64,000 nt of DNA from Lachnospiraceae bacterium (GTDB taxonomy: Bacteria > Bacillota > Clostridia > Lachnospirales > Lachnospiraceae), in the NCBI GenBank assembly GCA_024696005.1, contig JAILHF010000011.1:1-64000 (forward strand), given 5' to 3'. A program made the translations under genes and the position numbers. This document shows positions 14,557 through 56,744 of this stretch, piece by piece (position 1 is the first letter of the stretch; every line of letters begins with the position of its first letter). The notes beneath the pieces were generated by a model. It made no database searches. It was not told the DNA's origin and saw only the letters and a program-made list of their open reading frames with translations.

Positions 14557-17500
14557 ATGAAACAGAAAAGGAACAGAGTATGGTCTATGCTGCTCACATT
14601 CGCTCTCCTGGTGTCTTCCTTTGCGGGCAACACCGCAGTGCTGCCTGTTCAGGCAGGGGAAGAGGATGAGGGTGTCGTGAGCGGGGAAGAGTATGCCGGA
14701 AGCGAAGCCGGGGTGAGCGAAAGCCCCGAAGAGGCTCCGGAAGCGGCGCCTGCGGAGGTGCCCTCGGAAGAGGACGAAACCGCGGAAGCACCGAACTATG
14801 CGCCGGACGATGCACCGGCCGGCAGCTGCGGCGAGAGCCTGAGCTATGCGCTGGAGGACGGCGTGCTCACCATCACGGGCAGCGGTGACATGTACGATTA
14901 CGACAACCCCACCGCTTCGGGAACGCCGAAGAAGGTGCCCTGGCTGGACGAGATCGCCACGATCAAAGAAGTGAGATTTCCGGATGGCATCACGAGCATC
15001 GGAGCTTATTCTTTCTATAAGGCCACTTCTCTCAGCCAGAATCTGGTGATCCCGGATGGCGTGACGAAGATCGGAACGTATGCTTTCGAGGAAAGCGCGA
15101 TCACGGGAGATCTGACCATACCCGCGAGTGTGACGAGCCTCGGAGAAAACGCTTTTAATGACTGCCAGAAGCTGACCGGCGAGCTGATCATCCGCGGCGG
15201 CGGGATCACGGTCATTCCGAAATACTGCTTCTATCGCTGCTATTTCACCAAGGTGACCCTGCCGTCCTCGCTGCAGGAGATCCGGCAATATGCCTTTGCC
15301 TATCTGTCGCCGGAAACGCAGACCGAGCGGGTCGAGGTGGTGATCCCGCCTCTGGTGAACCGCATCGACGATTATGCGTTCTATTATTCGAAAGCCAGGT
15401 TTTATTTCAAGGGCAATGTTCCCAACTACAGCTTTTACGATCCGTATGAATGGCTGTGGCAGGTCAATCATCCCCTCGGCTACAATAACGGTGACGGAAA
15501 GCTCTTCTACATCGAAGGGACGTCCGGCTGGTACGAAGTGCAGGACGGCAAGCTGGGCGGCTACACCTTTGCAGCCCTGCCTGCCGATGACACTCATTTT
15601 TCGAACGCCAATGACGGTGAGACCCTGCCCGCAGTCAGTGACAGCGGAAGCTGCGGATCGGACCTGAGCTGGGAGATCAGCGGTACCATGGCAGGGCTGA
15701 CCCTGACCATCAGCGGTACCGGAAAGATGAATGACTTCAAGGAAAAACAGGCACCCTGGCAGAAGTACATGCCGGCCATCACCACGCTGGTGCTGCCGGA
15801 AGGCCTTACCTCGATCGGTGACTATGCGTTTCAGAAGAGCTATGCCCTGAAGGGCGAGCTGAAGCTTCCTTCCACGCTCACCACGATCGGCACCCATGCC
15901 TTTGAACAGAGCGGTTTCTATGCGGCGAAGCTTTCAATCCCCGCTTCCGTGAAGACCATCGGGGACTATGCGTTCTACCGCTGCCTCGGCATCCGTTCCC
16001 TGGAGTTCGCGGAAGGGCTGGAGACGATCGGGGTCCATGCGTTTGAGTATTGCGCGGGCTTGAACGGCATTTACGCGATCCCGGGCAGCCTTCGCAAGCT
16101 GGATGATTCTGCGTTTGCCTATTGCAAGAACCTGACGGGCAAGCTGGTATTCCGCTCCGGTCTGGAAGAGATCGGTGCCTATGCGTTCCTGGAAGCGGCG
16201 ATCAATGAGCTGACGCTGTCCTCCACGCTGCTGGTGATCAAAAACAGTGCATTCCTGCGCTGTGACGGCCTGGAAAAGGTCGTGATCCCCGCGTTGGTAT
16301 ACAATGTCGGTGCCAGTGCTTTCGGACAGACGACCGGGCGCACGGACGGAACGAACGGAAAGCTTGCGGATGTTTATTTCAAGGGGAATGCGCCTTTTGA
16401 GAAAGACGGTTCCGGCGCGGACGACTGGAAGAATTATTTCGGCGATACCGAGAAGGTAAAGATCCATTACATCAAGGGCCGCAGCGGCTGGACCAATCCC
16501 TGGAGCTCTTACACGACCGTGCGTTCCAATGACGGTTCGGAAGCGGGCTTCTCGGACGAGAACGACACAGAGACGCTTGCCGAGATCACTGACGGCGGCA
16601 AGTGCGGCAGTAAGCTGAACTGGGCGGTTTCCGGAACGCCCGACGACCTGACCCTGACCATCACGGGCAGCGGCACGATGAATGCCTTCACCAAGGCGGA
16701 TGCGGTGCCCTGGTACGAGTACCGCCACAAGATCCGTCATCTGGTCCTGCCGGCAGAGCTGGGCAGCATCAGCGACTATGCATTTTATCAGTTCACGGCG
16801 GTGAACGGCGATCTTGCGATCCCCGAAGGCGTGACGAGCATCGGCCAGTGGGCCTTTTCGGGCTGCGGCTTCGGGAATGAAACGCTGGTCATCCCGTCCA
16901 ACGTTACCACGATCAATGCTTCGGCTTTCCGTAACTGCAGCCGTTTCTCCTATCTGGAGATCGAAAACGGCGTGAAGACGATCGGAGATTTTGCCTTCAA
17001 CAGCTGCAGCGGCTTTACGGGTGACCTGGAGATCCCCGAATCCGTGACCTCGATCGGCAAATATGCCTTCGCGGGATGCAAGGGCTTTTCCGGCATCCTG
17101 ACGATGAATGCGGGCGTGACGAGCATCAGCGAGGGTGTGTTCCAGCGCTGCTATTTCACCGAGGCGATCCTGCCCCAGACGCTGACCGAGATCGAGAAGC
17201 AGGCCTTCGGCTATTGCGATACGCTCACAAAGATCACGATCCCGCCTCTGGTGGATTATGTGGGCATTGCCTTCGGTTATGACAGTTATGACAAAGCGAA
17301 TCCCCGTTCGGTCTACTTTGAGGGGAACGCACCCACGAACAGCAAGGATCCGGATTATGCGCCTTCTACCCTGAAGCAGGCATTCGGACATAACAGCAAG
17401 GTTACCCTGTATTACATTGAGGGCAAGGAAGGCTGGACGAGCCCGACCTGGCATGAGTATCCCACCGCGACCTGGGAAGGTCCCGCTACCGTGAATGTCA

Positions 17501-19614
17501 CGGGCGTGGAGCTGACTCCTTCGGAAGTGACTCTGAAAGTGGGAGCCACGAAACAGCTTAACGCAAAGGTCCTGCCTTCGAATGCGACGACAAAGACCGT
17601 GAGCTATAACAGCAGCAACGACGAAGTGGCAACGGTGAGCGAAAAAGGTCTGGTCACGGCAGTGAAGGCCGGAAGCGCAACGATCACCGTGACGACGACC
17701 GACGGCAACAAGACCGCGACCTGTGCGGTGACGGTGAGCGAAGAGGCGGCAACGGTATCGGTGAACGGCGTGACAGTCTCGCCCAAAACGGTAAGCATGA
17801 ATGTCGGCGAGGTCAAAAACCTTGTCGTGTCGGTATCGCCTTCGGATGCAACGGATCCGGGCGTGAGCTTTGCAAGTGACAAGCCGGCAGTCGCAAAGGT
17901 CGACGAAAACGGCAGGATCACGGGCGTGGCTTCCGGCAACGCGGTGATCACCGTGACCACAAACGACGGCGGCTTTACGGATACCTGTGAAGTGACGGTG
18001 ACGGAGAAAAAGACCGAGCCTGTCAAGAGTGCATGGAAGGTCGATTTCTACTGGGATAACGAGAAAGACGAGACGGTGCTTCTGGTCAGCCAGAGCGTGA
18101 AAGACGGTGATACCGTGGACTTCCCGGATGTTCCCGAAAAGGCGGGCTTCATGCTTGCCGGCTGGTGCGTGGACGATGAGGAAGGCCGCAACTGGGACGA
18201 GACCATGCCGGTATTCAGGGATCTGGACCTGCATGCACGCTTTGTAAGTGACAGCGGCAGCTCCAGACATTCGGGAATGGATCCGGATCTGGTACTGGAG
18301 GGAGAAGAGGATCTCTTCATGGTGAAGGGACAGAAGTACAACTTCCCTGTTGAAAAGAAGTGGAGCAGTGACGCACCGGATGTCGTTTCGATCACGAACG
18401 ATTACAAGTCCGCGGCCAAGAAGGCCGGACATGCCGTGATCACAGGAACGGACGGGACGGAGGAAGGAAAGGCCACCTATGATGTTTATGTCACGGATCC
18501 CAAGCTGGTCATTACAGCACCGGAGGCACAGAAGGGAGCCAAGGTCCTGAAGCTGGTGGAAGGCAACAAGGGTGTCCTGGATCTGGACGGCATGATGATC
18601 GACCGTGTGAAAGACGAAGGCGGTACCGAGAAGGAAGACGCTTCGTACGAATACGACATCACCTGGGTGACTTCCAACAAAGAAGTGGCGCTGGTGGATG
18701 ACGGCGAAGTCCATGCGGTGGCAAAGGGCAACGCCAGGATCACGGCTTATATCTGCGGCAAGACCTACAGCTTCAACGTGAAGGTGACCGACATCTACGG
18801 ATACGGGGCCGGCGACTATGAAGGAGCGCTCGAGCTCACTCCGCTTCAGACGGCAAAGGTCAAGTACAAGGGCGGCGATTTCAAGCTGAGCGCAAAGAGC
18901 GAATGGTCCTCCCCGGATGAGAGCCTGCAGCCGGTCTGGAACGCGAATAAGAGCAAGATCCTGTATTACCAGAACGATGTGGTGCGTGTGACGCCGGCCG
19001 GCAAGATCACGGCCATCGGCGCAGGCAGCGTGGATCTGGTGGTGAAGGAAGGCTCGAAACAGAAAGAGTTCACCGTGACGGTTCCCGACTCGGTCAGCAA
19101 GACCGTCTACATCAACAAGGGCAAGACCAAGAACATCAAGTTCTACGGCATGAAGTTCGGCGGAAGCACGGGCGCGACAGGCAGCATCGTGGTGGATACC
19201 GAGAAGTATGACGCAAAGATGATCGAGTTCGCAAAGAAGCAGTCCACGATCAGGGCCAATTCGACCGGCAAGGCAAAGGTACTCTATCGCTATGATCCTT
19301 ACGGGACCGGCGGCTTTGATTATGTGGTGAACGTCTTTGTCGAGGATCCGAAGCTGAAGACGGACAGCAAGCTCAAGCTCAAGTCCGGGACCAAGTACAC
19401 GCTGGAACTGAAGGAAGGCGAGACTTACGCGCTGCAGCTTGACGGTGTGTACCAGACGCCCGCGTACGCCAGCAACAAGAAGGATGTGGCGTTTGTGGAT
19501 GAGATGGGCGTGATCGAAGCCCGCAGTGCCGGAAAGAAGGGCACCGGGAAGGCAACGATCTCGGCCAAGATCAACGGGACCAAGATCTCCGTGGAGGTCA
19601 CGGTCAAAAAGTAA
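14557..19614 (+). CDS. Giant BspA-like surface protein A (LRR_5 plus Ig-like domains)
   Basis: The start chosen is 14557, behind AAGGAGGTAGGACC, giving 1685 residues. A signal peptide (about 1-33, ending PVQA) is followed by an acidic Glu/Ala/Pro linker. Three tandem blocks start at residues 89, 364 and 681. Each opens with GxCGxxLxW-type sequence and a TITGSG motif, continues with BspA leucine-rich repeats of the form ITSIGxYAFxxC, and ends near a YFKGN and YIKGxxGW pair. Two BIG_2 Ig-like domains follow from about 980, then a Listeria-Bacteroides-type repeat (FMLAGW) near 1210. From about 1240 to the end is the module shared with proteins B, C and D. No LPXTG, SLH or choline-binding motif is present. 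It probably binds host or dietary ligands at the cell surface; the ligand is unknown. A weak promoter (TTGGTA, 16, TAGGAT) lies at 14485-14512. Confidence 0.9.
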   Translation: MKQKRNRVWSMLLTFALLVSSFAGNTAVLPVQAGEEDEGVVSGEEYAGSEAGVSESPEEAPEAAPAEVPSEEDETAEAPNYAPDDAPAGSCGESLSYALEDGVLTITGSGDMYDYDNPTASGTPKKVPWLDEIATIKEVRFPDGITSIGAYSFYKATSLSQNLVIPDGVTKIGTYAFEESAITGDLTIPASVTSLGENAFNDCQKLTGELIIRGGGITVIPKYCFYRCYFTKVTLPSSLQEIRQYAFAYLSPETQTERVEVVIPPLVNRIDDYAFYYSKARFYFKGNVPNYSFYDPYEWLWQVNHPLGYNNGDGKLFYIEGTSGWYEVQDGKLGGYTFAALPADDTHFSNANDGETLPAVSDSGSCGSDLSWEISGTMAGLTLTISGTGKMNDFKEKQAPWQKYMPAITTLVLPEGLTSIGDYAFQKSYALKGELKLPSTLTTIGTHAFEQSGFYAAKLSIPASVKTIGDYAFYRCLGIRSLEFAEGLETIGVHAFEYCAGLNGIYAIPGSLRKLDDSAFAYCKNLTGKLVFRSGLEEIGAYAFLEAAINELTLSSTLLVIKNSAFLRCDGLEKVVIPALVYNVGASAFGQTTGRTDGTNGKLADVYFKGNAPFEKDGSGADDWKNYFGDTEKVKIHYIKGRSGWTNPWSSYTTVRSNDGSEAGFSDENDTETLAEITDGGKCGSKLNWAVSGTPDDLTLTITGSGTMNAFTKADAVPWYEYRHKIRHLVLPAELGSISDYAFYQFTAVNGDLAIPEGVTSIGQWAFSGCGFGNETLVIPSNVTTINASAFRNCSRFSYLEIENGVKTIGDFAFNSCSGFTGDLEIPESVTSIGKYAFAGCKGFSGILTMNAGVTSISEGVFQRCYFTEAILPQTLTEIEKQAFGYCDTLTKITIPPLVDYVGIAFGYDSYDKANPRSVYFEGNAPTNSKDPDYAPSTLKQAFGHNSKVTLYYIEGKEGWTSPTWHEYPTATWEGPATVNVTGVELTPSEVTLKVGATKQLNAKVLPSNATTKTVSYNSSNDEVATVSEKGLVTAVKAGSATITVTTTDGNKTATCAVTVSEEAATVSVNGVTVSPKTVSMNVGEVKNLVVSVSPSDATDPGVSFASDKPAVAKVDENGRITGVASGNAVITVTTNDGGFTDTCEVTVTEKKTEPVKSAWKVDFYWDNEKDETVLLVSQSVKDGDTVDFPDVPEKAGFMLAGWCVDDEEGRNWDETMPVFRDLDLHARFVSDSGSSRHSGMDPDLVLEGEEDLFMVKGQKYNFPVEKKWSSDAPDVVSITNDYKSAAKKAGHAVITGTDGTEEGKATYDVYVTDPKLVITAPEAQKGAKVLKLVEGNKGVLDLDGMMIDRVKDEGGTEKEDASYEYDITWVTSNKEVALVDDGEVHAVAKGNARITAYICGKTYSFNVKVTDIYGYGAGDYEGALELTPLQTAKVKYKGGDFKLSAKSEWSSPDESLQPVWNANKSKILYYQNDVVRVTPAGKITAIGAGSVDLVVKEGSKQKEFTVTVPDSVSKTVYINKGKTKNIKFYGMKFGGSTGATGSIVVDTEKYDAKMIEFAKKQSTIRANSTGKAKVLYRYDPYGTGGFDYVVNVFVEDPKLKTDSKLKLKSGTKYTLELKEGETYALQLDGVYQTPAYASNKKDVAFVDEMGVIEARSAGKKGTGKATISAKINGTKISVEVTVKK

Positions 19615-19642
19615 GCTTCGCGCATTTCGCGAAAACAAATGC

Positions 19643-19671
19643 AAAAGGGGTGGCTGTGCCGCCCCTTTTTT
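19643..19671 (+). terminator. Terminator after surface protein A
   Basis: AAAAGGGGTGGC and GCCGCCCCTTTTTT form a GC-rich stem with a T tail. Confidence 0.8.
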
Positions 19672-19742
19672 GTGCCCTTTGGAAGAGACTGGACAGAATT
19701 CAGCAAAACAATGCATATATTATGATGAGCGGAAACGGGGAC

Positions 19743-19770: not shown

Positions 19771-19797
19771 GGAATAGGAGAATACAAGGAGAGTGCG

Positions 19798-29532: not shown

Positions 29533-32500
29533 ATGGGAAAAAGAGCAAACAGATTTCTGGCCATGCTGATGTCGGCGGTGCTGGTCGTCGGAAATATCCC
29601 GGCATATGCGGCAGACGGGGATGAGACCGTCAGGCTGCAGACAGAGGCAGCTGAGGAAGCGGATTTCGCAGGGGATGAGGAGGAAACTGATCCGTGCTAT
29701 GCGGAGGAAGCAGCTGCGGACTGGTACACGAAATACGATTATGAAAAGGATGAGGAGGCCGGAAAGATCTGGCTTACCGCATCCAAGGGGGAGCTGTCGG
29801 GTGATATCACGGTACCGGCCAAGGCCACTATCGACGGAAAGGAATATGCGGTAGGCGTAAAGCCTTCGGGCACCAGCATCTGGAGTGCGGATGGGGACAA
29901 GATCACCGGGATCAGCTTTGAAAAGGGTGTGGAAGCATTTAACTACCTGGATAGTCTCTTTTACGGGCTTTCCAAGCTGAAGAAGGCCGATCTGAGCGGC
30001 CTGGATACCTCGAATGTCACGTCCATGCGCTTTCTCTTTCAGGGCTGCTACGAGCTGGAAGAGGTGAACCTTGAGGGCGTGAAGACCGGAAAAGTGCAGG
30101 AGATGGACTTCATGTTCTTTATGTGCTGGAAGCTGAAAAGCCTGGATCTGAGCGGCTTTGATACTTCCTCTCTTATAAAGCTGAATGCCGTCTTTTCCGG
30201 CTGCAAGAGCCTGGAAAGCCTGGATGTGAGCAGTTTCGACACCTCGAACGTTACCTGGATGGACAGCCTGTTTTCCGGCTGCTCGTCTCTGAAAAGTCTT
30301 GATATCAGCAATTTCTCAAGCGGAAAATGTGAAAGCATGTACTCCCTTTTCTATGGCTGTGAGTCCCTGGAAACACTGAATCTCGGGGAATTGGACACGG
30401 CAAACGTGAAAAACATGGGAGACATGTTCAAGGGCTGTTCCAAGCTGACGGGCATTGATCTGCACAGCTTCCGCACGACCCGCCTGGAAGACATGCGATC
30501 CATGTTCCAGGGCTGCACGGCCTTGAAACAGGCGGATCTGCGCAGCTTTGACCTGACAAAGCTGAATGAGGCTCATACCGAGTATCTGGATCCCGCGCTT
30601 TATTTCCTGACCAACAGCGGCGTGGAGGAACTGTACCTGCCGAAAAAGGCCATGTCTTCCCACGATTTCAGCGAATACAGCGCATTGAAGAAAGTGGGTT
30701 ATGTGGGAACGCAGGAAGAATGGAATGCCCTGAACAATACGCTTGCGAGCGGGGTGACCCTTACTTGCAATGTACCCGCGCCGCAGCCCGATGTGGACCC
30801 TGCGGAGTGGTATAAGGATTACTATTTTACGCTGGATGGGGAAGAGATCCTGATCCACGCGTCAAACGGAAAGATCACGGACGGAAATGTCATCATCCCG
30901 GCCACGGCACTTGTGGAGGGAAAGGAATACCGGACCGTTCTGGATTCTGCGAATAACTACGATGATCCGGCCAAGGTTTTTGATAACGAGAGCCTCTGGA
31001 AGATGGACAAGGGGACTGTTACCGGAATCACGATCCAAAAGGGTGTGAAAGCAACTCACAATCTGAACGGATTGTTTGCCGGCCTGGAGAATCTGTCTTC
31101 CGTGGACATGAGCGGCCTGGATACCTCGGCTGTCACGAGCATGACTTTTCTTTTCCGGGGATGTTATAAGATCAATGAGATCAAGCTGGGTAATCCGGAT
31201 ACCTCTGCCGTGACCGAGATGCGTGGCATGTTTGCCGGCTGCATCGAGCTTCAGCGCCTGGATGTGAGCGGTCTGGATACACAGAATGTCACGAACATGA
31301 TCGGCATGTTTGACTTTCTCTCGGCCGTAAAGACACTGGATCTGCGGAACTTTGACACATCCTCCGTTACCGACATGACGTCCATGTTTGATAATTGCAA
31401 GTCTCTGGAAAGCGTGGATCTGAGCAGTTTCAATACTTCCAAAGTGGAAGTCATGATCTCGATGTTTTCGGATTGCGAGAGCCTGAAAGAACTGGATCTG
31501 AGCAGCTTTGACACATCTTCCGTCCGGGGCTTCCAGTGGATGTTTGAAAATTGCAGATCCCTGCAGAGCCTTGATCTGAGAAGTTTTTCCACCAAGAGTG
31601 CACAGGATATCCACCAGATGTTCTCCGGCAGTTCGGCCCTGGAAAGCATTCTGTTCGGGGAGGGCTTTACCACGGAGCACGTAACGGACATGTACGGCGT
31701 CTTTGAAAACTGCAGAAGCTTAAAGAATGTGGATGTAAGTCGTTTCCATACGGAAAATGTAACGAGCATGCTCAGCTTGTTTGCTTTCTGTGAAAACCTG
31801 AGCAGCGTGGATGTCAGCAATTTCCATACCACAAAAGTCACGAATTTCATCGGGATGTTCAAGAAATGCCTCTGCCTGCGCTCGCTGGATCTGCGCAGTG
31901 TGGATTTTACGGATGAAAAAACGCTGAGCGAACTTACGGCCGACAGCGGCGTCACGCACCTGTATCTGGGACAATATGCCATGAGCGGCTACGACTTTAC
32001 CTCCGGGTATACGGACGGGAAGTTTGCGATCAGCAACATTTACTTTACGGGGACGGAAGAAGAATGGGCTGCGAAGAACAACAGCTATCCGGACAGCGTG
32101 ACGGTCAGCTGCAATTTCAGCGGGGATCCGGTAGAACTGGAGAAGGTAGTGGAATCCGTGAGCCTGAACCATTCGAGTGTGACCATCGAGCAGAATGGCA
32201 GCGTGCAGATTAGCGCAACGGTATATCCCGAGGATGCGACGGATAAGCGGGTCTTCTGGGAAGTCGTGGGCGGATCGGCAGATATCAGCGTGGATCAGAC
32301 CGGAAAGGTGACGGCAACGAATGTCCGCGGCACGTTCCGCATCAAAGCAACTGCCATGGACCGCGGGCTTGTGAGCGCCGTATGCGAAGTGACCGTGAAA
32401 GATAAGGGGAGCGACGATCCCACGCCTGCACCGGCTATCCCCATCCCCGGCAGCGGCGAGGCCAGGGATTCCCAGCCGTTGATCGAAGAGGGCGAAACGC

Positions 32501-33339
32501 TTTATCTCGTGAAGGGACAGAGCTTTACGCTGGCAAAGGGCTGGAGCAGCAAGGACAAGATCCTCAGCGTGAGCAAAACGGGTGTGGTCAAGGCAAAGAA
32601 TACCGGAACGGCCACTCTGGTCTACGGAGAAAACGAAAAGACGATCCATGTGAGCATCACCGCTCCCACGATCACTTCCAAGATCCCTTCGCTGCCCGTG
32701 GGTACGAGTCAGGAAATCGCCCTGAACTGCGACAGTAACCTTCCGGTGCTCTGGTACAGCGCCGCGCCGAACATCGCGACAGTGGATCAGGGGGGACATG
32801 TGACGGGGCTTTCGAAGGGTACGGCCAAAGTCACCGCGATGATCAACGGCAAGGCCTATACCTGCTCGGTGAAGGTTACGGAAGAGAAATCCCTTCCGGA
32901 ACGGGATCTGTATCTGAACGTGAAGAGCAGCAAGAACGTAAAGATCAAGGGGCTGAAGAAGACGGTTTGGACCATCTCCGGAAACGAAGCGGAAGGCAAG
33001 GAGATCCTGAAGGTAAGCGGCAGCAAGTTCAAGGGACTGAAGGCCGGTGACGTGAAGCTGGTCTGCGAGGGCTATGTGCTGAATGTCCATGTGGAGGATC
33101 CGGCCCTGGAGGGAAGCGCGAAGCCCTGCAAGATGACGCTCAACATGAAGGCAGGGGAGGTCTCGGAGAAGCCGGTGACGCTCCTCGGCGTGGAACAGGA
33201 CGTGATCTACAAGAGCAACAAGCCTTCCGTGGCCTATATCGACGACAGCGGCCTGATCCGGGCCCGCAGCAAGGGCACGGCCAAGATCACGGCCAAGATA
33301 AACGGAAAGACGGTCACGATCACTGTGAAGGTAAAGTAA
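29533..33339 (+). CDS. BspA-like surface protein B (DUF285 repeats plus Ig-like domains)
   Basis: The start chosen is 29533, behind CGAGGAGGTGCTTT, giving 1268 residues. A signal peptide ends near residue 27 (IPAYAA). Two blocks start near residues 64 and 426. Each opens with a WYxxYxF beta-rich segment and continues with 25-residue DUF285 repeats of the form LxGLDTSNVTxMxxLFxGC. An Ig-like BIG_2 domain occupies about 875-960. From residue about 972 (GSGEARDSQPLIEEGE) to the end lies the module shared with A, C and D. The first 27 residues closely match those of protein C, indicating duplication. No known anchoring signal is visible. A TATAAT lies at 29495-29500 without a good -35. Confidence 0.9.
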   Translation: MGKRANRFLAMLMSAVLVVGNIPAYAADGDETVRLQTEAAEEADFAGDEEETDPCYAEEAAADWYTKYDYEKDEEAGKIWLTASKGELSGDITVPAKATIDGKEYAVGVKPSGTSIWSADGDKITGISFEKGVEAFNYLDSLFYGLSKLKKADLSGLDTSNVTSMRFLFQGCYELEEVNLEGVKTGKVQEMDFMFFMCWKLKSLDLSGFDTSSLIKLNAVFSGCKSLESLDVSSFDTSNVTWMDSLFSGCSSLKSLDISNFSSGKCESMYSLFYGCESLETLNLGELDTANVKNMGDMFKGCSKLTGIDLHSFRTTRLEDMRSMFQGCTALKQADLRSFDLTKLNEAHTEYLDPALYFLTNSGVEELYLPKKAMSSHDFSEYSALKKVGYVGTQEEWNALNNTLASGVTLTCNVPAPQPDVDPAEWYKDYYFTLDGEEILIHASNGKITDGNVIIPATALVEGKEYRTVLDSANNYDDPAKVFDNESLWKMDKGTVTGITIQKGVKATHNLNGLFAGLENLSSVDMSGLDTSAVTSMTFLFRGCYKINEIKLGNPDTSAVTEMRGMFAGCIELQRLDVSGLDTQNVTNMIGMFDFLSAVKTLDLRNFDTSSVTDMTSMFDNCKSLESVDLSSFNTSKVEVMISMFSDCESLKELDLSSFDTSSVRGFQWMFENCRSLQSLDLRSFSTKSAQDIHQMFSGSSALESILFGEGFTTEHVTDMYGVFENCRSLKNVDVSRFHTENVTSMLSLFAFCENLSSVDVSNFHTTKVTNFIGMFKKCLCLRSLDLRSVDFTDEKTLSELTADSGVTHLYLGQYAMSGYDFTSGYTDGKFAISNIYFTGTEEEWAAKNNSYPDSVTVSCNFSGDPVELEKVVESVSLNHSSVTIEQNGSVQISATVYPEDATDKRVFWEVVGGSADISVDQTGKVTATNVRGTFRIKATAMDRGLVSAVCEVTVKDKGSDDPTPAPAIPIPGSGEARDSQPLIEEGETLYLVKGQSFTLAKGWSSKDKILSVSKTGVVKAKNTGTATLVYGENEKTIHVSITAPTITSKIPSLPVGTSQEIALNCDSNLPVLWYSAAPNIATVDQGGHVTGLSKGTAKVTAMINGKAYTCSVKVTEEKSLPERDLYLNVKSSKNVKIKGLKKTVWTISGNEAEGKEILKVSGSKFKGLKAGDVKLVCEGYVLNVHVEDPALEGSAKPCKMTLNMKAGEVSEKPVTLLGVEQDVIYKSNKPSVAYIDDSGLIRARSKGTAKITAKINGKTVTITVKVK

Positions 33340-33354
33340 AGAAAGATCTGTCAG

Positions 33355-33383: not shown

Positions 33384-33412
33384 TTGACAATCCCTGGGCA
33401 TTGAAATAGAAT
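33384..33412 (+). promoter_or_regulatory. Promoter of the transglutaminase-like lipoprotein gene
   Basis: Consensus TTGACA (33384-33389), 17 bases, TAGAAT (33407-33412). Confidence 0.75.
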
Positions 33413-33446
33413 GGCTTCAATGAATGAGGATCGGAGTGAGGATATC

Positions 33447-34565
33447 ATGAAGAAAAACAGGATCGGGCGGCTTGTCCCGGTATTGGCCCTTTCGGTATTA
33501 TTGACGGCCTGCAACGAAAACAACGAGCCGAGGGGGACCTACGAGCCCGAGATCACGGAGGTGCCGGCAGCTCCCACGGCGGAACCCACGGAAGCGCCGA
33601 CGCCGACGGAAATCCCGAAACCGACCGCAACACCCACGCCCGTGCAGGATCAAAAGATATCGGTCGCTGAGATCGATCACTATGTGATGAGCCCGGTGAG
33701 AGAGGCATATTTCCCGGAGGATGAAGCCTCCCGGCAGGCATACTGCGATCTGATCGACGGCATCATGGCCCACAAAAGCGTGGTCAGGCTTACGGATGAC
33801 TGGGACCACAATCTGATCATCTGGGGTGCTGTTTCGGAAAGCCCGTATTACTTTATTGTGGACAAGGATCGTCTTTCCGACGATCACAAAAGTCTGGAAC
33901 TGACCTACCGTTATGATGCGGAAGAGTCGGCGGAGATGCTTCACTTTATCGATGAGTCCTATGTGGAGATCCTGAATGAATGCATCACCGAGAACATGAG
34001 CGATCTGGAAAAGGTGCTGTCTATCTACCACTATTTCGGGGAGCGGATCAGCTATGACTACGAATGGTACGAAAATGCGCAGGCGACGGAAGCGGATGAA
34101 CGTTTCAAGGTACCGGACATCGCGGTTTATGATGCGCTGAAGTCGAACGAAGGGGTATGTCATTCCTATACCTATCTGTGCCAGTTTGCATTTCAGCAGC
34201 TGGGGATCGAGTGCCTTCGGGTAACGGCGGACATGGCGGAGGGGGATGAAAGCCACATGTGGCCCATCGTAAAGATCGACGGCATGTTCTATAACATCGA
34301 CCCCACCTGGGACAGCCATGACGGGAATGATACGGTGGGATTGCAGTATTTCGGGATGACCTATGAGGAAGCGACCGCAGACCGCGGGATCCTGGGTTAC
34401 GATATTTCCATCGACATGGCATACGGGGATGTGATCTGCGAGGATGAGCGTTTCGCCTCCCTGCATGATGTGTACGATTATCACATGAATTATGACGGGA
34501 CCATCACGGTCGTTCGCACGGATGGAAGCGAGGAGATCGTGAACGTGCGGGAATGGGAGGAGTGA
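33447..34565 (+). CDS. Transglutaminase-like lipoprotein
   Basis: The start chosen is 33447, behind GGAGTGAGGATATC, giving 372 residues. Lipobox VLLTAC puts the lipidated Cys at 22. A Pro/Thr linker (about 30-66) leads to a transglutaminase-core domain. The catalytic triad is readable: Cys238 in EGVCHSYTYL, His270 in SHMWPIVKI and Asp285 in NIDPTWD. Such domains act as cysteine peptidases or crosslinking enzymes. It is tethered to the outer face of the membrane and lies between surface proteins B and C, so those may be its substrates (inference). It has its own promoter. Confidence 0.87.
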   Translation: MKKNRIGRLVPVLALSVLLTACNENNEPRGTYEPEITEVPAAPTAEPTEAPTPTEIPKPTATPTPVQDQKISVAEIDHYVMSPVREAYFPEDEASRQAYCDLIDGIMAHKSVVRLTDDWDHNLIIWGAVSESPYYFIVDKDRLSDDHKSLELTYRYDAEESAEMLHFIDESYVEILNECITENMSDLEKVLSIYHYFGERISYDYEWYENAQATEADERFKVPDIAVYDALKSNEGVCHSYTYLCQFAFQQLGIECLRVTADMAEGDESHMWPIVKIDGMFYNIDPTWDSHDGNDTVGLQYFGMTYEEATADRGILGYDISIDMAYGDVICEDERFASLHDVYDYHMNYDGTITVVRTDGSEEIVNVREWEE

Positions 34566-37700: not shown

Positions 37701-38509
37701 ATGTGAACGGCGTGGTCTTCAAGTTCACGGTGAAGGTGGCGGATGCGGATACCACCAAGCCTCCCTTCGGAGAAGGGGAAGCATCGATCTGGGCGGAGCC
37801 CATGCAGAGCTACCAGATCAAGGCGGCCGGCTTCAATGCCAAGAAGGCAAAATACAGCTCGGACAATGAGAATGCTGTATCGGAGAACGCCCTGAAGAAG
37901 GGAATCGCCTACGAGGACAATGTTGTGCGCATCACGACTTCCGGAAAGCTCACGGCCATCGGTGTGGGCGAGACGCGCATCACGACGACCGGCGGCGGAA
38001 AGGACTTTGTCTTCAACGTGACGGTGGAAGAGCCGCGCGCCAAGACCCTGCACCTGAACGTGAAGGGAAGCAAGACGCTGAAGATGTACGGTACCAAGGG
38101 CAATCTGAACTGGAAAGCGTATGATCCGGAGGATCCCTCCAAAGAGATCAAGGACGTGGTCGGCATCAAGGGCAACACGATCAAGGGAAGCAAGACCGGC
38201 CATGTGCTGCTGCAGGCGGAGTGCGAAGGTTTCACTTATTTCGTGGATGCCTATGTCGAGGATCCTTCGCTCGAGATCAAAGGGGAGCTCAAGGGGAAGC
38301 CGACCTCCGCGAAGTGGGAGGCCAAGCCGGGAGAAAGCCTGACGATCATCCAGCCCGGCGTATCGCAGGAGGTGCTGTTTACGAGCAACAAGTGCAGCGT
38401 GGCCTATGTGGATGAAGATGGCGTGATCCATGCCCGCAGCGCCGGGAAAGCCAAGATCACGGCCAAGGTGAACGGAAAGACCGTCACGATCACCGTGACG
38501 GTCAATTGA
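34712..38509 (+). CDS. BspA-like surface protein C (LRR_5 plus Ig-like domains)
   Basis: The start chosen is 34712, behind ACAGGAGGTGCATTT, giving 1265 residues. The signal peptide starts MGKRANRLLALLMSAVL, nearly identical to protein B. Two BspA-type leucine-rich blocks begin near residues 70 and 292, each with LHWAL/LGWTL and TISGTG/TFSGSG openings like the blocks of protein A. A fibronectin-like region follows (about 515-740), then a BIG_2 domain near 750-830, a Gly/Pro spacer, and from about 851 (GATDSQPAITD) the shared C-terminal module. No sortase, SLH or choline-binding motif. It is probably exported and held at the surface by the shared module or by unknown partners. Confidence 0.9.
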   Translation: MGKRANRLLALLMSAVLCVSNIPVHAADADDGRVTLTATEESGSEADGGESGLPSADAVDSGDFGEGNTLHWALSDGVLTISGTGRMENFEADSRPWESVLDSITEVKVEDGVTRVGKFAFMNAKALKKLTLADSVKQVGGAAFGGCSALEEVDLGKGLVSLGYNCFTYTTALKSIVIPGGVKMVPHYAFNGGGLEEITLAEGVEAIGYQAFPNTLKKLCIPTTLKSIANSACSGKNGVDLYLYYGGTAEEFENVVIADLNDRITTINLVTECDKVVTDRSAVPAAAKVAEGSCGELGWTLDDEGLLTFSGSGDMPDYLADTLPGYEPTPWNAYKDSIVTVRLEEGVGCVGDYAFDVADAIQKVILADSVKRIGRSAFDQCLNLYAVELGSGLRSIDPYAFLNCDGMASITIPGRIKTISESAFSYCRLGRLVLEEGVQTIEGWAFQYANLTHVELPLSLKSIGDAAFRGNPNLKAWYAGTRESFEKITIGSGNENLTGAEIVYGEAAAPAQKISDVRYDKAKGNVFYHATGAGTYYGIVFFEDKHFGLWTEPKESEETEERSLQLYMDLLEHGSGEYRYYLIWENGTELKKLREAAEDADDPSSLFNEEILKDWISSKSEAEAQCVSGKVNYTLPSQRLSVPTDLKFVQNDDGVFLSFSEVENADDGYYWLRSRALDDKGCEIDKGQQSAISNHIDVQWLLDLHGNRQAFAVSAYPLDCEAYRNSEWSEWIIYDNGTVKKAVPVTKVTMEKTSLSVEPGKVVTIQASVAPETSTCKTVEWSSSDPSVCKVESFGDTGSKAHLKGLKAGSVTITAKAIDGSGVSATMKVTVTTGGDEPGPGPGPVDPDPISGGGGATDSQPAITDAAEQSLVLVKGQKFTLAQKDWTSSDKTVLAVSKGNVTAKKAGSATLKSEKQTITVTVVEFAIDKKDKTISLFAGNNGMVTKLTDLLADYNEGKDASAQLSATYQSLAPDVATVGEDGSLTAVSKGSAVINAYVNGVVFKFTVKVADADTTKPPFGEGEASIWAEPMQSYQIKAAGFNAKKAKYSSDNENAVSENALKKGIAYEDNVVRITTSGKLTAIGVGETRITTTGGGKDFVFNVTVEEPRAKTLHLNVKGSKTLKMYGTKGNLNWKAYDPEDPSKEIKDVVGIKGNTIKGSKTGHVLLQAECEGFTYFVDAYVEDPSLEIKGELKGKPTSAKWEAKPGESLTIIQPGVSQEVLFTSNKCSVAYVDEDGVIHARSAGKAKITAKVNGKTVTITVTVN

Positions 38510-50758: not shown

Positions 50759-50786
50759 AGAGCAAAAAAACACAGGGGGGATAAGT

Positions 50787-50816: not shown

Positions 50817-50861
50817 GTGTTATCATTAATCTCGCAGGACACCTAACATGAGGGGATCGTC

Positions 50862-53036
50862 ATGAAGAAACATACGGAAGGAGCAGCGGAGAACAGGAAT
50901 GACCGGTATCTGTTGTTTCAGGTCTTATTCTTTGGCGCTGCCATAATGATCAACTTTATCCTGCCCAGGCTTGCGGGGGCTCTGAAACTGCCCTTGTATC
51001 TGGACAATGTGGGAACTCTTCTGGCCGCAGTGCTGGGCGGCTACCTGCCCGGTGTCGTGGTGGGCTATCTCAACAACATCATCAACATGCAGGGAAATCC
51101 CGGGAATGCGTATTATGTGGTGCTTTCCACCATGATCGCAGCCTGCGGGACCTGGCTGGGACGAAAGGGCTGCTTTGAGCGCTTCTGGAAAGCGCTGCTT
51201 ACGATACCCCTCTTTGCCTTTATCGGAGGCGTGCTGGGGTCCATCCTGACCTATCTCCTTTACGGGTACGGCATGGGCGAGGGGATCAGCGCACCCTTTG
51301 CCAGGGAGCTTCTGGAAAGCGGGAAACTGACCGTTTTCTGGGCGCAGATGACTTCGGATGTGGTGATCGACCTGATCGACAAGGGGATCACCGTGGTGCT
51401 GGTCTTTGTGATCCTGAAACTGATCCCGGAGCGGGTCAAGCCCTGCCTGTGGCTGACCGGCTGGCGCCAGGCCCCGCTTACGGACGATGCGCTGACGGAT
51501 GCCAGAAGGAATGTCACCAGGTCCTTCTCCCTCCGGGGAAAGATCATTGCCATCATTTCCGTGATCATGGTCTGCGTGGCTGTTGTCACCACGGTGATCA
51601 GTTATCTTCTGTTCCGGAGCTTTGCCCTGAAGCAGTATACCTACAGCTGTAACAGCGCGGCCTCCCTGGTGGCGGATCTCATCGACCCGGAGAAGGTGGA
51701 CGAATTCCTTGCGCTGGGCGAGGCGGACCCGGATTACGGCGACATCGAGAAGCGGCTGGAGAGCATCAGGCACGGGAATCCCGACATCGAATACATCTAT
51801 GTGTACCGCTTTACGGAGGAAGGGGTACGGGTCATCTTTGACCTGGATACGGCAGAAGTGAAAGGGCAGGAAGCAGGAAGCCTCATCGCTCTGGAGGAGT
51901 ATCTGGAACCCTACCGGGATGCGCTGCTCGCCGGCGAAGCTGTGGAGCCGCTCATGGATGATACCATGTACGGAAAGCTCCTTACGGTCTTCAAGCCGAT
52001 CTATAGATCGGACGGTACGTGCGCCTGCTATGCCGCGGCGGACATCAAGGTGGAGGACATCCATATCTCCACCCTGAACTACATGACCAAGGTCTTTTCC
52101 CTCTTCATCGGCTTTTACATCTTTATCCTGACCCTTTGCATCTGGCTGGTGGATTATCATCTGATCTATCCCATCGCGGCTATGACGGTTTCGGCCAGAA
52201 AGTTTGCTTATGACAGTGAGGAAGCGCTGGAGGTGAGCGTTGACCGCCTGCAGCACCTGGACATCGCCACGGGGGACGAGATCGAGAACCTGTACGAGTC
52301 GCTCTCCAAGACCATCGCCGAAACGGTCGGCTATCTCGAGGATGCGAAGAACAAGGGAGAAGAGATCGCCCATATGCAGAACGGGCTGATCTACATCCTG
52401 GCGGACATGGTGGAGAGCCGGGATAAGAATACCGGGGATCATGTGCGAAAGACGGCGGCTTATGTCCGTCTGATCATGAATAAGATGAAGGAGAAGGGGA
52501 TCTATGCGGATGTCCTGACGGATGAATACATAGAGGATGTGGTGAATTCGGCCCCCCTGCATGATGTGGGAAAGATCATGGTATCCGATGTGATCCTGAA
52601 CAAGCCCGGGAGGCTTACGGATGAGGAGTTTGCCCAGATGAAGGGGCATACCACTGCCGGCAAGCGCGTCATCGCCAGCGCCATGTCCCTGGTCTCTGAC
52701 AGCAGCTATCTGAGGGAGGCCAAGAATCTGGCAACCTATCACCACGAGCGTTGGGACGGCAAGGGCTATCCCAGCGGCAAGGCCGGGGAGGAGATCCCTC
52801 TTTCCGCCCGCATCATGGCGGTGGCGGATGTCTTTGATGCCCTGGTATCCAAACGCAGCTATAAGGAGCCCTTCAGCTTTGAAAAAGCCATGGATATCAT
52901 CCGGGAAGGCGCCGGAACCCAGTTCGACCCGCAGATCGCCATGCTCTTTGTGGAAGCCGAGGATGAGGTGCGGGAAGTGACCCGTACTCACGAAGTCCTG
53001 CTCGGACCGGGCAACGAGATACGTGACAATGGCTGA
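50862..53036 (+). CDS. Membrane HD-GYP phosphodiesterase with HAMP-like linker
   Basis: A 724-residue protein. About five membrane segments (20-190) resemble an ECF/LytS-type membrane sensor. Another segment near 230-250 starts an extracellular sensor (about 255-410), which ends in a segment near 410-430. A HAMP-like region follows, then the HD-GYP domain from about 505. Metal and catalytic residues are His567-Asp568 in LHDVGKI, HHERWDGKGYP with GYP at 635-637, and ADVFDALVSKRSYK. It should hydrolyse cyclic-di-GMP. GAGGGGATCGTC precedes the ATG. It may counterbalance the GGDEF protein at 13084. Confidence 0.93.
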   Translation: MKKHTEGAAENRNDRYLLFQVLFFGAAIMINFILPRLAGALKLPLYLDNVGTLLAAVLGGYLPGVVVGYLNNIINMQGNPGNAYYVVLSTMIAACGTWLGRKGCFERFWKALLTIPLFAFIGGVLGSILTYLLYGYGMGEGISAPFARELLESGKLTVFWAQMTSDVVIDLIDKGITVVLVFVILKLIPERVKPCLWLTGWRQAPLTDDALTDARRNVTRSFSLRGKIIAIISVIMVCVAVVTTVISYLLFRSFALKQYTYSCNSAASLVADLIDPEKVDEFLALGEADPDYGDIEKRLESIRHGNPDIEYIYVYRFTEEGVRVIFDLDTAEVKGQEAGSLIALEEYLEPYRDALLAGEAVEPLMDDTMYGKLLTVFKPIYRSDGTCACYAAADIKVEDIHISTLNYMTKVFSLFIGFYIFILTLCIWLVDYHLIYPIAAMTVSARKFAYDSEEALEVSVDRLQHLDIATGDEIENLYESLSKTIAETVGYLEDAKNKGEEIAHMQNGLIYILADMVESRDKNTGDHVRKTAAYVRLIMNKMKEKGIYADVLTDEYIEDVVNSAPLHDVGKIMVSDVILNKPGRLTDEEFAQMKGHTTAGKRVIASAMSLVSDSSYLREAKNLATYHHERWDGKGYPSGKAGEEIPLSARIMAVADVFDALVSKRSYKEPFSFEKAMDIIREGAGTQFDPQIAMLFVEAEDEVREVTRTHEVLLGPGNEIRDNG

Positions 53037-53059
53037 TATTAAGGTCTCTTCTTAATATC
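53035..53059. promoter_or_regulatory. Perfect inverted repeat after the HD-GYP gene
   Basis: GATATTAAG (53035-53043), 7-base spacer, CTTAATATC (53051-53059). It overlaps the stop codon and ends 30 bases before the -10 at 53089. It lacks a T run, so an operator fits better than a terminator. Confidence 0.5.
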
Positions 53060-53088
53060 GGCAATATTCATGAAGAATAACCCCATGC

Positions 53089-53240
53089 TATAATCGATAA
53101 TATGGCGGAAGTGCCTTCTGCTGCCCGGCAAAAGCGGGCGGCGGAAGCGTGTTTCCCTTCCGGCAGTGCTTTGAAAATGCCCGGGAGCCCGTGCGGGCTT
53201 TTGCGTGTTTTGCGCGGGGGCAGGAAAAGGAGGTTTGGAG
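53089..53240 (+). promoter_or_regulatory. Structured leader of surface protein D
   Basis: TATAAT at 53089-53094 is followed by a leader of about 140 bases. It contains a 13-bp hairpin, CTTCTGCTGCCCG (53115-53127) with CGGGCGGCGGAAG (53135-53147) and two G-U pairs. A second, terminator-like hairpin, AGCCC-GTGC-GGGCT, runs into a T-rich stretch (53186-53206). The ribosome site AAAAGGAGG follows. Confidence 0.5.
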
Positions 53241-56200
53241 ATGAAGAACAGATGGACGAAACTGCTGTCCCTGCTGCTTACGGCATCGCTGCTGGCGCCT
53301 TATGTGCCTTCTTATGCGGCGGAGCCCGACGGAGGGGAGAGTGTGGTGCAGGAGGCTGCCCCCGGAGAAGAAGAGGCAGAAAGCGGAGAAAATGATGCGC
53401 CGGAGGATGCCGCTCCGGAAGATGAGGCCAAAACAAAGGAAGAGGGCAAGCGGGAAGCGACGGATCCGGCAGAAGTCGGGGCACCGGTGGTGCAGGTCGA
53501 GCTCCCTGACGGTTCCTATGCAGAGGCGGTGGATATCACGGCCTATTGCGAGATCAATAAGCATACGATCCAGTCCTACAGCGGGAATTTTAAGGCGATC
53601 CTGATCCCCGATAAATATCACGATTATGATCTGGATGAACACGACTGTGAATGCTCTGCCATCGGAAACTATGTTTTTCAGGGGCATACGGAACTGGAAG
53701 AAGTATATTTTGCGGATAACACGAATTATATCGGCAGCTATGCGTTTTCCAATACCGGCCTGAAAAGCGTCACGATCCCTTCCTCGATGGGGGCGATCGG
53801 TGCGAACGCCTTCAGCGATTGCGATGAATTGGAAGAGGTCGTATTCCTTCCGGATAATGAACTTGCGATCCAGACCTGGGGGGACAGTACCTTCGCGAGA
53901 TGTGAGAAGCTGAAAAAGATCACCCTGTCCAACAAGTGCTGGAGCGTTCCGGATAATTTCGCCACGGAATGTCCGGAACTGGAAGAAGTGGTGTGGCCCG
54001 ATCTGGGACCCGTTGTGCCCTTCAAGATCGGTACCTATGCTTTCCGTTATGACAAAAAGCTCAGGACTTCGGATTTTACCGGGACCAATCTGACGGAGAT
54101 CGGATCGGGCGCCTTTACCCAGTGTGAGAAGCTGGAGGTGCCGAAATTTACATCTGCCTTAAAGACGATCGGGAGTCAGGCTTTTTCTTCGGCCTGCACG
54201 GATGAAAGCGTCACACCGGCGCCTCTCACGATCCCGAAAAGTGTCAAGACCATCGAACACAGTGCTTTTCAGAATGTGTCTGCGATCACGGAGCTGACGT
54301 TTGAAGCGAACGGCACGGGAGCTTTTGATACGCCGTCCACGATCGAATTTACGGAAAACGGATCGGCGGGCACCTTCTATGAGTGCACCGGACTGAAAAA
54401 GATCGTTCTTTCGGACCGCACGCCGCATATTCCTTCTGCATTTGCGGAGTACTGCACGGCGCTGGAAACGGTGGAATGGCCGGCCAATCTGGAGGACATC
54501 GACAGCTATGCCTTCCGCTACGACGAAAACCTCGTCAGTTCGGATTTCACGGGGACGTCCCTGAAGGAGACCCATAAAGGCGCATTTAACCAGTGTGATA
54601 AACTTCCGGTACCGAAGTTCCCGGCCACGATGGAAACGATCGGCTGGGAGAGTTTTTGCAAGACCGGAACGAATGAGAGCGTGACGCCCGCCGCCCTTGT
54701 GATCCCCCGCAGTGTGACCGAGGTCGGCTGCACGGCCTTTGCGTATACGCCGTCCATCACCAAGGTTACGTTTGAAGCAAATGATCCGGCGCATCCGGAG
54801 AATGACAGCATCATCAAATTTACGGAAAACGGTTCCGCGGCGACATTTGCCGATTGCGAAGGGATCCGCGAGTTTGTTCTTTCGGACCGCACGCCGAATA
54901 TCCCCTCTGCCTTTGCAGAGGGCTGCAAGGCGCTGGAGACCATCAACTGGCCGGCTGATCTGGAGAGCATCGATTCCTATGCCTTCCGCTATGATGAAAA
55001 GCTTGCCAACTCGGATTTCAGCAAAACGAAGCTGAAGGTCACCGAAAAAGGCGCATTTTTCGGATGTGCAAAGCTGAATCTTCCGAAATTCCCGCACACG
55101 ATGCAGGAGATCGGCTGGGAGTCCTTTGAGAAGATCGCATCGGATCCCGGGGTTGAAGCCGGTACCGTGATCATCCCCAACAGCGTGACCACGATCGGCT
55201 GTTCAGCGCTTTCCCGCATCGATGCGTTGAGGAAAGTGGTATTTGAGGCCAATGAAGAAGGGAAAGAAGCGACGTCGATCACATTTCAGAAGAACGGGAC
55301 GGCGTATACCTTCGGCGGCTGCGAAAACCTCACGGAGGTGGTGCTTTCGGACCGTGTGACGAAGATCCCCTCGGCGTGTTTCCGGGGAAGCTATAATCTG
55401 ATCCTGTTGGAAGATGCTGTGGCAGTTACCGAGATCGACGGATACGCGTTCCTGCCGGAAGAACTGGATCAGCAGGAGATCGTGCTGAAAAACTGCAATT
55501 CGACGGTGCTGAAGTATGATTGGTCGGATGACCGCCGTGTGGTGGTGGATGTTGCAACGTCAGTCATTCTTGAGGCGGAATATACCGTTGAAGAGGGCAA
55601 GAGCCTCGATCTGAACCCGGTCATCACGGTAGTTCCGGAGGGAAGTGCGGTTCCGAAGTTTGAATGGATCAGCAGTTCCGAAAGCTATGTCAAGGTTGAT
55701 GCGAACGGAAAGGTTACCGGGCTCAAGGTGGGAAGCGCCACGATCTCGGTCAAGAGCAAGGAAGGCATCCTGAAGGCAAAGTGCAAGGTGAAGGTCACCG
55801 AGAAGGGCGAAGGCCCCGCGCCTGCCCCGGAACCCTTTAAGCCGGTTTACGGAAGCGGGGAAGCCATGGACAGCCTGCCACTGATCGAAGAAGAGACCGA
55901 AAAGATCTATCTGGTGGCGGGGCAGAGCTTTACCGTCAGCAATGCGAAGGGATGGAAGGTCGGGAGCAGCTCGATCCTGAGCCTGAACAAAAAGGGCATG
56001 GTAAAGGCCAAGAATACAGGGGATACGACCCTGAGCTACGGTGATCTGACGTTTGACGTGAATGTCTCCAAGCCGGCCATCACGACAAAGAAAAAGACGC
56101 TGGAAGCCGGATCGGAGTGGAGTGTGGACTTAAACTGCAACGAAAACCTCGCGGTGTACTGGCAGAGCGCATCCCCGGATGTGGCAAGAGTAAACCGGGA

Positions 56201-56744
56201 GGGCGTGGTCACTGCCGTCAGCAAGGGCAGCGCGAAGATCACGGCCTATATCAACGGCAAGGCTTACAGCTGCACGGTCAAGGTCACGGAAGGCACGCCC
56301 GCAAAGGAACGTACGCTGCATCTGAATGTCGGTGCCAAAAAGAGCGTCAAGCTCAAGGGTGTGAAGAAGCCGGACTGGAAGGCGGCCGACGAGGATCCGG
56401 ACTGCATCGGAACGATCGTTGACGTCACCGGCGGCAAGATCTACGGACGCGCGGTCGGTGAGGCTACGCTGGTCTGCGGAGAATACACGCTTCATGTAAC
56501 GGTGCAGGATCCTTCGGTCAAGGGTGCGGCCAAGCCTTACAAGACGACGGTGGAACTGGGCGTCGGCGACACGAAGGCCATGAGCTTTGCCCAGGAAGAG
56601 CTGCCCATGATCTTCAAGAGCAGCAAATGCAATGTGGCTTACATGACGGCTGACGGCACGATACATGCCCGCGCGAAGGGTACCGCCAAGCTTACGACCA
56701 AGATCAACGGAAAGGCCGTGACCATCACGGTGAAGGTGAAGTAG
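53241..56744 (+). CDS. BspA-like surface protein D (LRR_5 plus Ig-like domains)
   Basis: The start chosen is 53241, behind AAAAGGAGGTTTGGAG, giving 1167 residues. A signal peptide ends near residue 26 (PSYAA), followed by an acidic Glu/Asp/Ala linker. Residues about 100-770 are irregular BspA leucine-rich repeats. One unit of about 155 residues is nearly duplicated, marked by LSDRTPHIPSAFAEYC and LSDRTPNIPSAFAEGC and by IDSYAFRYDE. A BIG_2 Ig-like domain lies near 775-855, and the shared module starts near 870 (GSGEAMDSLPLIEEE). It is closest to protein B in this module, including LNCNENLAVYWQSASP versus LNCDSNLPVLWYSAAP. No known anchor motif is visible. Confidence 0.9.
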   Translation: MKNRWTKLLSLLLTASLLAPYVPSYAAEPDGGESVVQEAAPGEEEAESGENDAPEDAAPEDEAKTKEEGKREATDPAEVGAPVVQVELPDGSYAEAVDITAYCEINKHTIQSYSGNFKAILIPDKYHDYDLDEHDCECSAIGNYVFQGHTELEEVYFADNTNYIGSYAFSNTGLKSVTIPSSMGAIGANAFSDCDELEEVVFLPDNELAIQTWGDSTFARCEKLKKITLSNKCWSVPDNFATECPELEEVVWPDLGPVVPFKIGTYAFRYDKKLRTSDFTGTNLTEIGSGAFTQCEKLEVPKFTSALKTIGSQAFSSACTDESVTPAPLTIPKSVKTIEHSAFQNVSAITELTFEANGTGAFDTPSTIEFTENGSAGTFYECTGLKKIVLSDRTPHIPSAFAEYCTALETVEWPANLEDIDSYAFRYDENLVSSDFTGTSLKETHKGAFNQCDKLPVPKFPATMETIGWESFCKTGTNESVTPAALVIPRSVTEVGCTAFAYTPSITKVTFEANDPAHPENDSIIKFTENGSAATFADCEGIREFVLSDRTPNIPSAFAEGCKALETINWPADLESIDSYAFRYDEKLANSDFSKTKLKVTEKGAFFGCAKLNLPKFPHTMQEIGWESFEKIASDPGVEAGTVIIPNSVTTIGCSALSRIDALRKVVFEANEEGKEATSITFQKNGTAYTFGGCENLTEVVLSDRVTKIPSACFRGSYNLILLEDAVAVTEIDGYAFLPEELDQQEIVLKNCNSTVLKYDWSDDRRVVVDVATSVILEAEYTVEEGKSLDLNPVITVVPEGSAVPKFEWISSSESYVKVDANGKVTGLKVGSATISVKSKEGILKAKCKVKVTEKGEGPAPAPEPFKPVYGSGEAMDSLPLIEEETEKIYLVAGQSFTVSNAKGWKVGSSSILSLNKKGMVKAKNTGDTTLSYGDLTFDVNVSKPAITTKKKTLEAGSEWSVDLNCNENLAVYWQSASPDVARVNREGVVTAVSKGSAKITAYINGKAYSCTVKVTEGTPAKERTLHLNVGAKKSVKLKGVKKPDWKAADEDPDCIGTIVDVTGGKIYGRAVGEATLVCGEYTLHVTVQDPSVKGAAKPYKTTVELGVGDTKAMSFAQEELPMIFKSSKCNVAYMTADGTIHARAKGTAKLTTKINGKAVTITVKVK

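Follow-up and report, generated by a model that had tools for sequence, protein, structure and literature searches.

Four large exported proteins that differ in their N-terminal parts and share one C-terminus are encoded in a 64,000-nucleotide stretch of DNA (the window: positions 1 to 64,000 of contig JAILHF010000011.1, assembly GCA_024696005.1) from a Lachnospiraceae bacterium, apparently of the genus of isolate NK4A179; the question raised by this locus is what a common C-terminal module does on such dissimilar proteins. A first-pass annotation of the window described the shared C-terminus as unrecognised and placed it as an attachment or secretion module. The observation is real and larger than first described; the interpretation is partly supported. 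Judged from sequence and predicted structure, the shared C-terminus is probably a non-covalent, charge-assisted surface anchor, GW- or WxL-like in role and built from Big_2-type domains.

A shared C-terminal module in four window proteins

The open reading frames (ORFs) of proteins A (14557-19614), B (29533-33339), C (34712-38509) and D (53241-56744) all stand open on the + strand as first annotated, and all begin with signal-peptide-like starts. The different fronts reported for them are seen in Pfam as well: three of the proteins (A, C and D) have LRR_5 leucine-rich repeats (LRR), and B has DUF285 but scores as LRR_5 too; Big_2 is found upstream of the module in all four. Protein A runs from its signal peptide through LRR_5 blocks, Big_2 units and a sub-cut-off List_Bact repeat of the InlB B type (score 24.5 vs cut-off 27) to a linker (SGMDPDLV..., 18271-18306) and an extended module of ~435 residues (18307-19611); protein C runs from signal peptide through LRR_5 and Big_2 to an extended module of ~396 residues (37319-38506). 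Proteins B and D end in compact modules of four immunoglobulin (Ig)-like units, at 32491-33336 in B, following signal peptide, DUF285/PARCEL repeats and Big_2, and at 55893-56741 in D, following signal peptide, LRR_5 blocks and Big_2; all of these features lie on the + strand.

The four C-termini align over the entire module, with 52 of 452 columns invariant from LxLVKGQ to the stop, and module identity to B is 50% for D, 44% for C and 35% for A. The segments named at first pass (LxLVKGQ, the AKITAxINGK strands, LxLNVxxxK, VEDPxL and the SNKxxVAYxD end) are present in A-D, with small variants in A and D. A correction to the first-pass description is that A and C have the module in an extended form, in which a further Ig-like unit separates its two halves.

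Family size and C-terminal position

The genome from which the window is taken (hereafter the own genome; 3.75 Mb, 74 contigs) was searched with a profile of the four C-termini; 49 matches were obtained, which on ORF reading gave 18 complete modules including A-D, all stop-proximal with 0-3 residues before the stop. As the four-protein profile finds the module in 14 further complete own-genome proteins, chance is excluded and A-D are part of a family of 18. Two more module fragments, at the edges of contigs C44 and C74, likewise end at a stop; the other matches are single Big_2-type units, partly upstream in module proteins and partly non-C-terminal elsewhere (L048:8413-14964, L055, L054). Two genes of the family are irregular: a YDG-domain protein (L046:12798-14627, C73 near 192,800) has an in-frame stop after the first half of the module, and an LRR_5 module protein on contig C66 lies in two overlapping frames (L258:1594-2859, a signal-peptide piece of 422 residues, and 2823-8204, 1794 residues with the module), a split that is a frameshift or an assembly error.

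For relatives, 84,980 species genomes were scanned with 12 compact own-genome modules; of 152 pattern matches 85 were confirmed and the best 80 kept, at 76 loci. All of these loci are titled Lachnospiraceae; the titles of several name the rumen or omasum of goat, sheep or water buffalo, and isolate NK4A179 accounts for three loci. With identical modules removed, 97 complete modules remain, of which the own genome supplies 18 and 18 other assemblies the other 79. Neither search nor filter required a C-terminal position, and the module nonetheless ends 0-7 residues from the stop in 97/97; the invariable C-terminal position that a profile search of genomes was proposed to check is thus found in every complete module. 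Incomplete or internal matches are left out of the 97, for example L090:7082-11467 and L117:6779-11281 (Big_2-type units only), L069:8689-12720 (partial, reaching the stop) and pieces at contig ends. With its many cargo families, one module stands at the terminus of many unrelated exported proteins, a trait that it shares with non-covalent wall anchors as a functional class.

Module anatomy and predicted fold

The compact form, four tandem Ig-like units, measures 282-313 residues and accounts for 78/97 modules; the extended form, with five, measures 379-435 residues and accounts for 19/97. AlphaFold2 models the compact module (68 sequences) with a mean predicted local distance difference test score (pLDDT) of 93.3 and a predicted template modelling score (pTM) of 0.82, and the extended module, with one all-beta unit more, with a pLDDT of 84.5 and a pTM of 0.73; the predicted fold is Ig-like, a row of tandem beta sandwiches. 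Foldseek with the predicted module returned generic tandem Ig and cadherin-type chains, and no ligand hint was obtained from this fold search.

On unit 2 Big_2 (PF02368) scores 25.9 bits in A, 27.4 in C, 32.1 in D and 38.6 in B against a curated cut-off of 22.8; on unit 4 it scores 22.9 in C and 21.8 in B (22.9 with neighbours), and no Big_2 match is listed for unit 4 of A and D. Big_2 does not match units 1 and 3 of A-D; in two other own-genome modules unit 1 lies just above the cut-off (C58:84756-84884, 23.1 bits; C73:92485-92589, 23.9 bits). By their profile scores, divergent Big_2 domains make up unit 2 and, in some copies, unit 4; together with the predicted tandem Ig-like fold this is the likeness of the module to Big_2 and to Big-like (PF22359), which also matches part of it. 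The description of the module as unrecognised is therefore correct only in part; Big_2 does not span the entire module of A-D. The module differs from these families in its unmatched window units 1 and 3, its fixed unit number, its C-terminal position, its linker and its basic charge. The proline-containing linker, S[APGMV]x[DN...][PSTV], is found within 35 residues before the module in 75/95 proteins vs 84/1900 random upstream windows; B, C and D have variant linkers, which fall among the 20 without the pattern.

Charge, and a possible role as a stalk

Net charge was compared within 93 proteins, those whose front part reaches 200 residues or more. The module carries a mean of +4.7 net charges per 100 residues and the rest of the protein -5.8 (Wilcoxon p 5.6e-17), and it is more basic than the remainder in 93/93, with a median isoelectric point of 9.5 vs 4.6. 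The 150 residues preceding the module average -6.6 (n=91) and upstream Big_2-type stretches in module proteins -3.9 (n=54); since the latter are acidic on average, the fold as such does not account for the basic charge in these proteins. By unit, mean net charge is +6.8, +0.3, +3.4 and +5.4 from unit 1 to unit 4, and lysine or arginine occupies 23 positions in at least 70% of 68 modules, aspartate or glutamate 8.

These data bear on the possibility that the module is a plain stalk, the last part of a Big_2 rod with no binding function of its own. The Big_2 scores of unit 2 and some unit 4 copies and the additional Big_2 domains in front of many modules would fit such a rod, and a fibrillar adhesin survey describes many putative adhesins whose stalk reaches the C-terminus (PMC9210967). 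Stalks are however expected to vary in copy number, while the module keeps its unit order and its two length classes; its charge is reversed relative to upstream Big_2-type units, it has invariant residues and a conserved linker of its own, and 42/61 front parts of relatives are without any Big_2 match. A stalk without binding function is therefore considered quite unlikely.

Cargo, export signals and other anchors

The cargo in front of the module is very diverse. In the own genome it includes LRR_5, DUF285, List_Bact repeats, DUF6273 and CHB_HEX_C_1, YDG on the truncated protein, a papain-like protease with a lectin-like domain in three proteins, and matches to cohesin, dockerin and ricin lectin together in one. 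The 61 front parts of relatives (E up to 0.001) show List_Bact in 30, Big_2 in 19, LRR_5 in 9, papain in 5, DUF285 in 4 and CHAP in 2 (L071 and L072), and subtilase, NlpC/P60, GH9 cellulase (L070) and cohesin in one each; the counts of front-part families rest on the 25 commonest families listed of 42 and of 34. Several of these classes (CHAP, NlpC/P60, subtilase, papain with lectin, GH9, cohesin) are expected to work at the cell, and a need to stay there would be the common factor of wall hydrolases, proteases, cellulase, cohesin and LRR proteins.

Export appears to be ordinary: by a rule of our own, a signal-peptide-like start is seen in 73/81 ORFs with a visible 5' end, and two of the eight failures resemble signal peptides by eye. 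A lipobox is found in 0/73 recognised signal peptides. No 19-residue window of the 97 modules exceeds a Kyte-Doolittle (KD) value of 1.32, giving no membrane segment in the module, and a sortase tail is likewise lacking, with an LPxTG-like string once in the last 400 residues among the 97 and no hydrophobic module window. Profiles of GW, SLH, LysM, CWB1, CWB2 and WxL have no match in A-D (E up to 1) and none in 12 ORFs and 10 front parts (E up to 0.001), scans that covered 15 of the 18 own-genome module proteins whole, while for the 61 front parts of relatives the 25 commonest families of 42 and of 34 were listed; the first-pass statement that LPXTG, SLH, GW, LysM and choline-binding families are lacking from A-D was borne out (E up to 1).

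Other tails are present in the own genome. Next to a sortase gene on C73, an LRR protein (L251:634-6537) ends in PKTG and a hydrophobic tail, without the module. A second type of C-terminal tail, grouped by eye (KGTMTVxxxGxGDxYSGTxxxKI-like), is found on other large exported proteins, one of them with LRR_5 (G000:C4:3463-8130, C73 at L055:661-6690, C47 at L253, C27 at L057 and C68 at L056); a third, also grouped by eye (GKTKTVTLKNVSxYTxVxW), is found on three exported proteins of the own genome, G000 (L048:8413-14964, L054:2674-5076 and L255:3276-7229), whose last 150 residues are basic in all.

The same cargo bears on a second possibility, that the module serves outward adhesion to plant fibre, mucus, other cells or the modules of neighbours, with attachment to the own cell achieved by other means. 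Big_2 and Ig-like domains are found in adhesins; among PDB sequence relatives of the module the best is teneurin-like (E 3e-16), and others are a carbohydrate-binding protein at E 1e-4 and, as a weak match, intimin at E 0.02; and several source genomes are titled rumen or omasum. Adhesion would nevertheless leave the module proteins without a visible anchor of their own, and a single specificity is hard to explain across proteases, wall hydrolases, cellulase and LRR proteins; moreover, the survey cited above seeks the adhesive part of fibrillar adhesins at the end distant from the anchor (PMC9210967). Outward adhesion is thus unlikely.

Partner candidates and neighbouring genes

A third possibility is an export or sorting signal, in which the C-terminal block would be read by a secretion or processing machine; the strict C-terminal position and the conserved linker would agree with this, and in type IX secretion an Ig-like C-terminal domain is read by the secretion machinery. 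The bacterial family is, however, Gram-positive. The module proteins also carry ordinary signal peptides, and at ~290 residues or more the module is a folded block rather than a short signal, which makes secretion less likely. Nor did the co-occurring specific enzyme suggested at first pass emerge from the few tried, namely sortase and a transglutaminase-like enzyme, which do not track the module. Sortase was rejected as a partner, being present in 34/35 genus genomes with or without the module; a smaller set gave sortase in 20/21. The transglutaminase-like lipoprotein encoded between B and C (33411-34565), which might have cross-linked the lysine-rich module, was rejected as a general partner: a clear orthologue occurs in 1/34 other genus genomes (G232, module-positive, 68% identity), the others giving short or weak matches. 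With related tandems frequently N-terminal in other genera (see below), an export or sorting signal is regarded as very improbable. SLH anchoring was rejected as well, since the own genome gives no SLH match and only 4/35 genus genomes give any.

A GGDEF gene (12901-14370) directly precedes A and an HD_5 (HD-GYP-like) gene (50862-53036) directly precedes D; from these gene positions a link between cyclic di-GMP (c-di-GMP) and surface display is possible.

Distribution and evolution

Of 200 family genomes, 156 give a match at E 0.001, but strong full-length matches occur only in the own genome and G004; the best match elsewhere (3.4e-33) covers part of the model. G004, listed in the genus of the window, appears to be isolate NK4A179, because its two sortase matches have the contig numbers and coordinates that are found in the genome of locus L078. 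Across the class (291 genomes), only one further genome gives a match better than 1e-20, and that match is partial. Within the genus, where strong presence was called at E below 1e-60, 12 of 35 genomes are strong, 19 weaker and 4 without a match. LRR_5 matches per genome have a median of 44 in module-positive genomes (n=12) vs 12 in the others (n=23), with a p of 1.6e-4 that is not corrected for relatedness. The module is absent from all 23 LRR-type ORFs examined from module-poor species of the genus and from three further ones (G004, own genome); at least 8 of the 23 show an apparent N-terminal membrane segment, which would be uncleaved, and the others have other tails, look cytoplasmic or are cut.

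In other Lachnospiraceae genera, 40 closed-end ORFs carry a related Ig tandem; 23 have it at the N-terminus (starting within 170 residues), 14 at the C-terminus and 3 elsewhere, and many of these stretches are strongly basic. A tandem at either end fits a binding module and speaks against a secretion signal.

The module DNA of B is shared with a protein of a different front: a stretch of 903 bp (32440-33342, + strand), from within the linker, 51 bp before the module match, to 3 bp past the stop, has 91.7% DNA identity to the gene of an LRR_5/DUF6273 protein on contig C54. Beyond it a single 44-bp DNA match is found, and the fronts as proteins share one 136-residue stretch of 46% identity; near-identical module DNA behind different fronts indicates at least one move of the module as a cassette. 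The nearest module lies in another genome for 80/97 and in the same genome for 17/97, and most paralogues therefore seem older than the species, this pair being an exception. With mean module identity of 38.7% within genomes and 38.5% between them, concerted evolution within genomes is not seen. Horizontal spread is not needed either: on a PrfA tree of 34/35 genus genomes (G251 being without a full PrfA match), presence takes 2 changes vs an average of 10.0 with shuffled labels.

Weighing of a probable surface anchor

Attachment is supported by the C-terminal position in 97/97, the very diverse cargo, the lack of any other anchor seen and the basic module on acidic proteins; of the two functions first proposed, it is thus attachment that gains backing and secretion that loses it. 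The anchor is read as non-covalent because the module is placed where InlB has its GW block and WxL proteins have WxL. Several observations weigh against an anchor. Tandem Big_2 domains are usually read as stalks. Charge is uneven, with unit 2 almost neutral, the extended modules weakly basic (A +1.4 and C +1.5 per 100 residues) and a lowest module value of -1.2. Strict C-terminality is a trait of this genus only, as tandems are mostly N-terminal in other genera; copy number varies, and isolate NK4A179 (taken as G004) has just 3 full-length and one split match among the matches listed. Sortase occurrence does not follow that of the module, and neither a ligand nor, among the few enzymes tried, a partner gene came to light.

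A surface anchor would work as follows. Module proteins would be exported via an ordinary cleaved signal peptide, and the cargo at the N-terminus, which is acidic and varies between proteins (LRR, lectin, protease, wall hydrolase, cellulase, cohesin), would be held at the cell by the terminal module; the four or five Ig-like units of the module would form a fixed row and may grip an anionic envelope component through conserved lysines and arginines; wall teichoic acid or another secondary wall polymer is the candidate ligand. Envelope binding, the ligand and its affinity are all inferred. The module may have originated from Big_2 stalk domains in which number, charge and position then became fixed, and new surface proteins could arise by placing the same cassette behind a new front.

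Relation to known anchors and significance

InlB is ordered LRR, Ig-like, B repeat and GW, with a GW part that is basic and has an SH3-like fold. Protein A resembles it in running through LRR_5, Big_2, a List_Bact repeat and the module, with the latter in a comparable C-terminal place; unlike GW, the module has no GW family match and is predicted to be tandem Ig-like rather than SH3-like. The GW-type domain of InlB is described as attaching the Listeria protein non-covalently to the wall (PMC7155027). SLH and CWB2 anchor varied cargo as tandem triplets; the module is of another fold and family, and of the two only SLH was searched genome-wide. These two are non-covalent anchors acting through wall polymers, and WxL is a C-terminal block of ~120-190 residues on extracellular proteins that binds peptidoglycan non-covalently, with genes that are often clustered (PMC5817068). 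The module is like WxL in being a C-terminal block on extracellular proteins, but the module proteins have no WxL family match, and lineage and length are other. Roseburia enzymes may carry Big_2 and List_Bact domains, which a literature search did not confirm. No description of the module was found in the open-access literature; anchoring by repeated modules is already known, and it is the fixing of Big_2-type domains as a basic C-terminal tetrad that was not found there.

The module is a concrete candidate anchor in a lineage with a cultured isolate, and may be of use as a surface-display tag for anaerobic gut Firmicutes. It also suggests a route from stalk domain to anchor, by charge reversal and a fixed unit number. 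More tentatively, and short of an even chance, lysine-rich tandem Ig-like blocks might form a general, unrecognised wall-binding class in Lachnospiraceae, placed at either protein end and here fixed as a C-terminal socket for the display of up to ~20 proteins in a genome, among them a cohesin protein, a cellulase and wall hydrolases. In the fibrillar adhesin survey, known anchors or sortase motifs are found in 846/1,666 proteins of the positive training set, and many anchor domains are supposed to be unknown (PMC9210967). If such a general class is true, it would supply many of the anchors that appear to be missing from large surface proteins.

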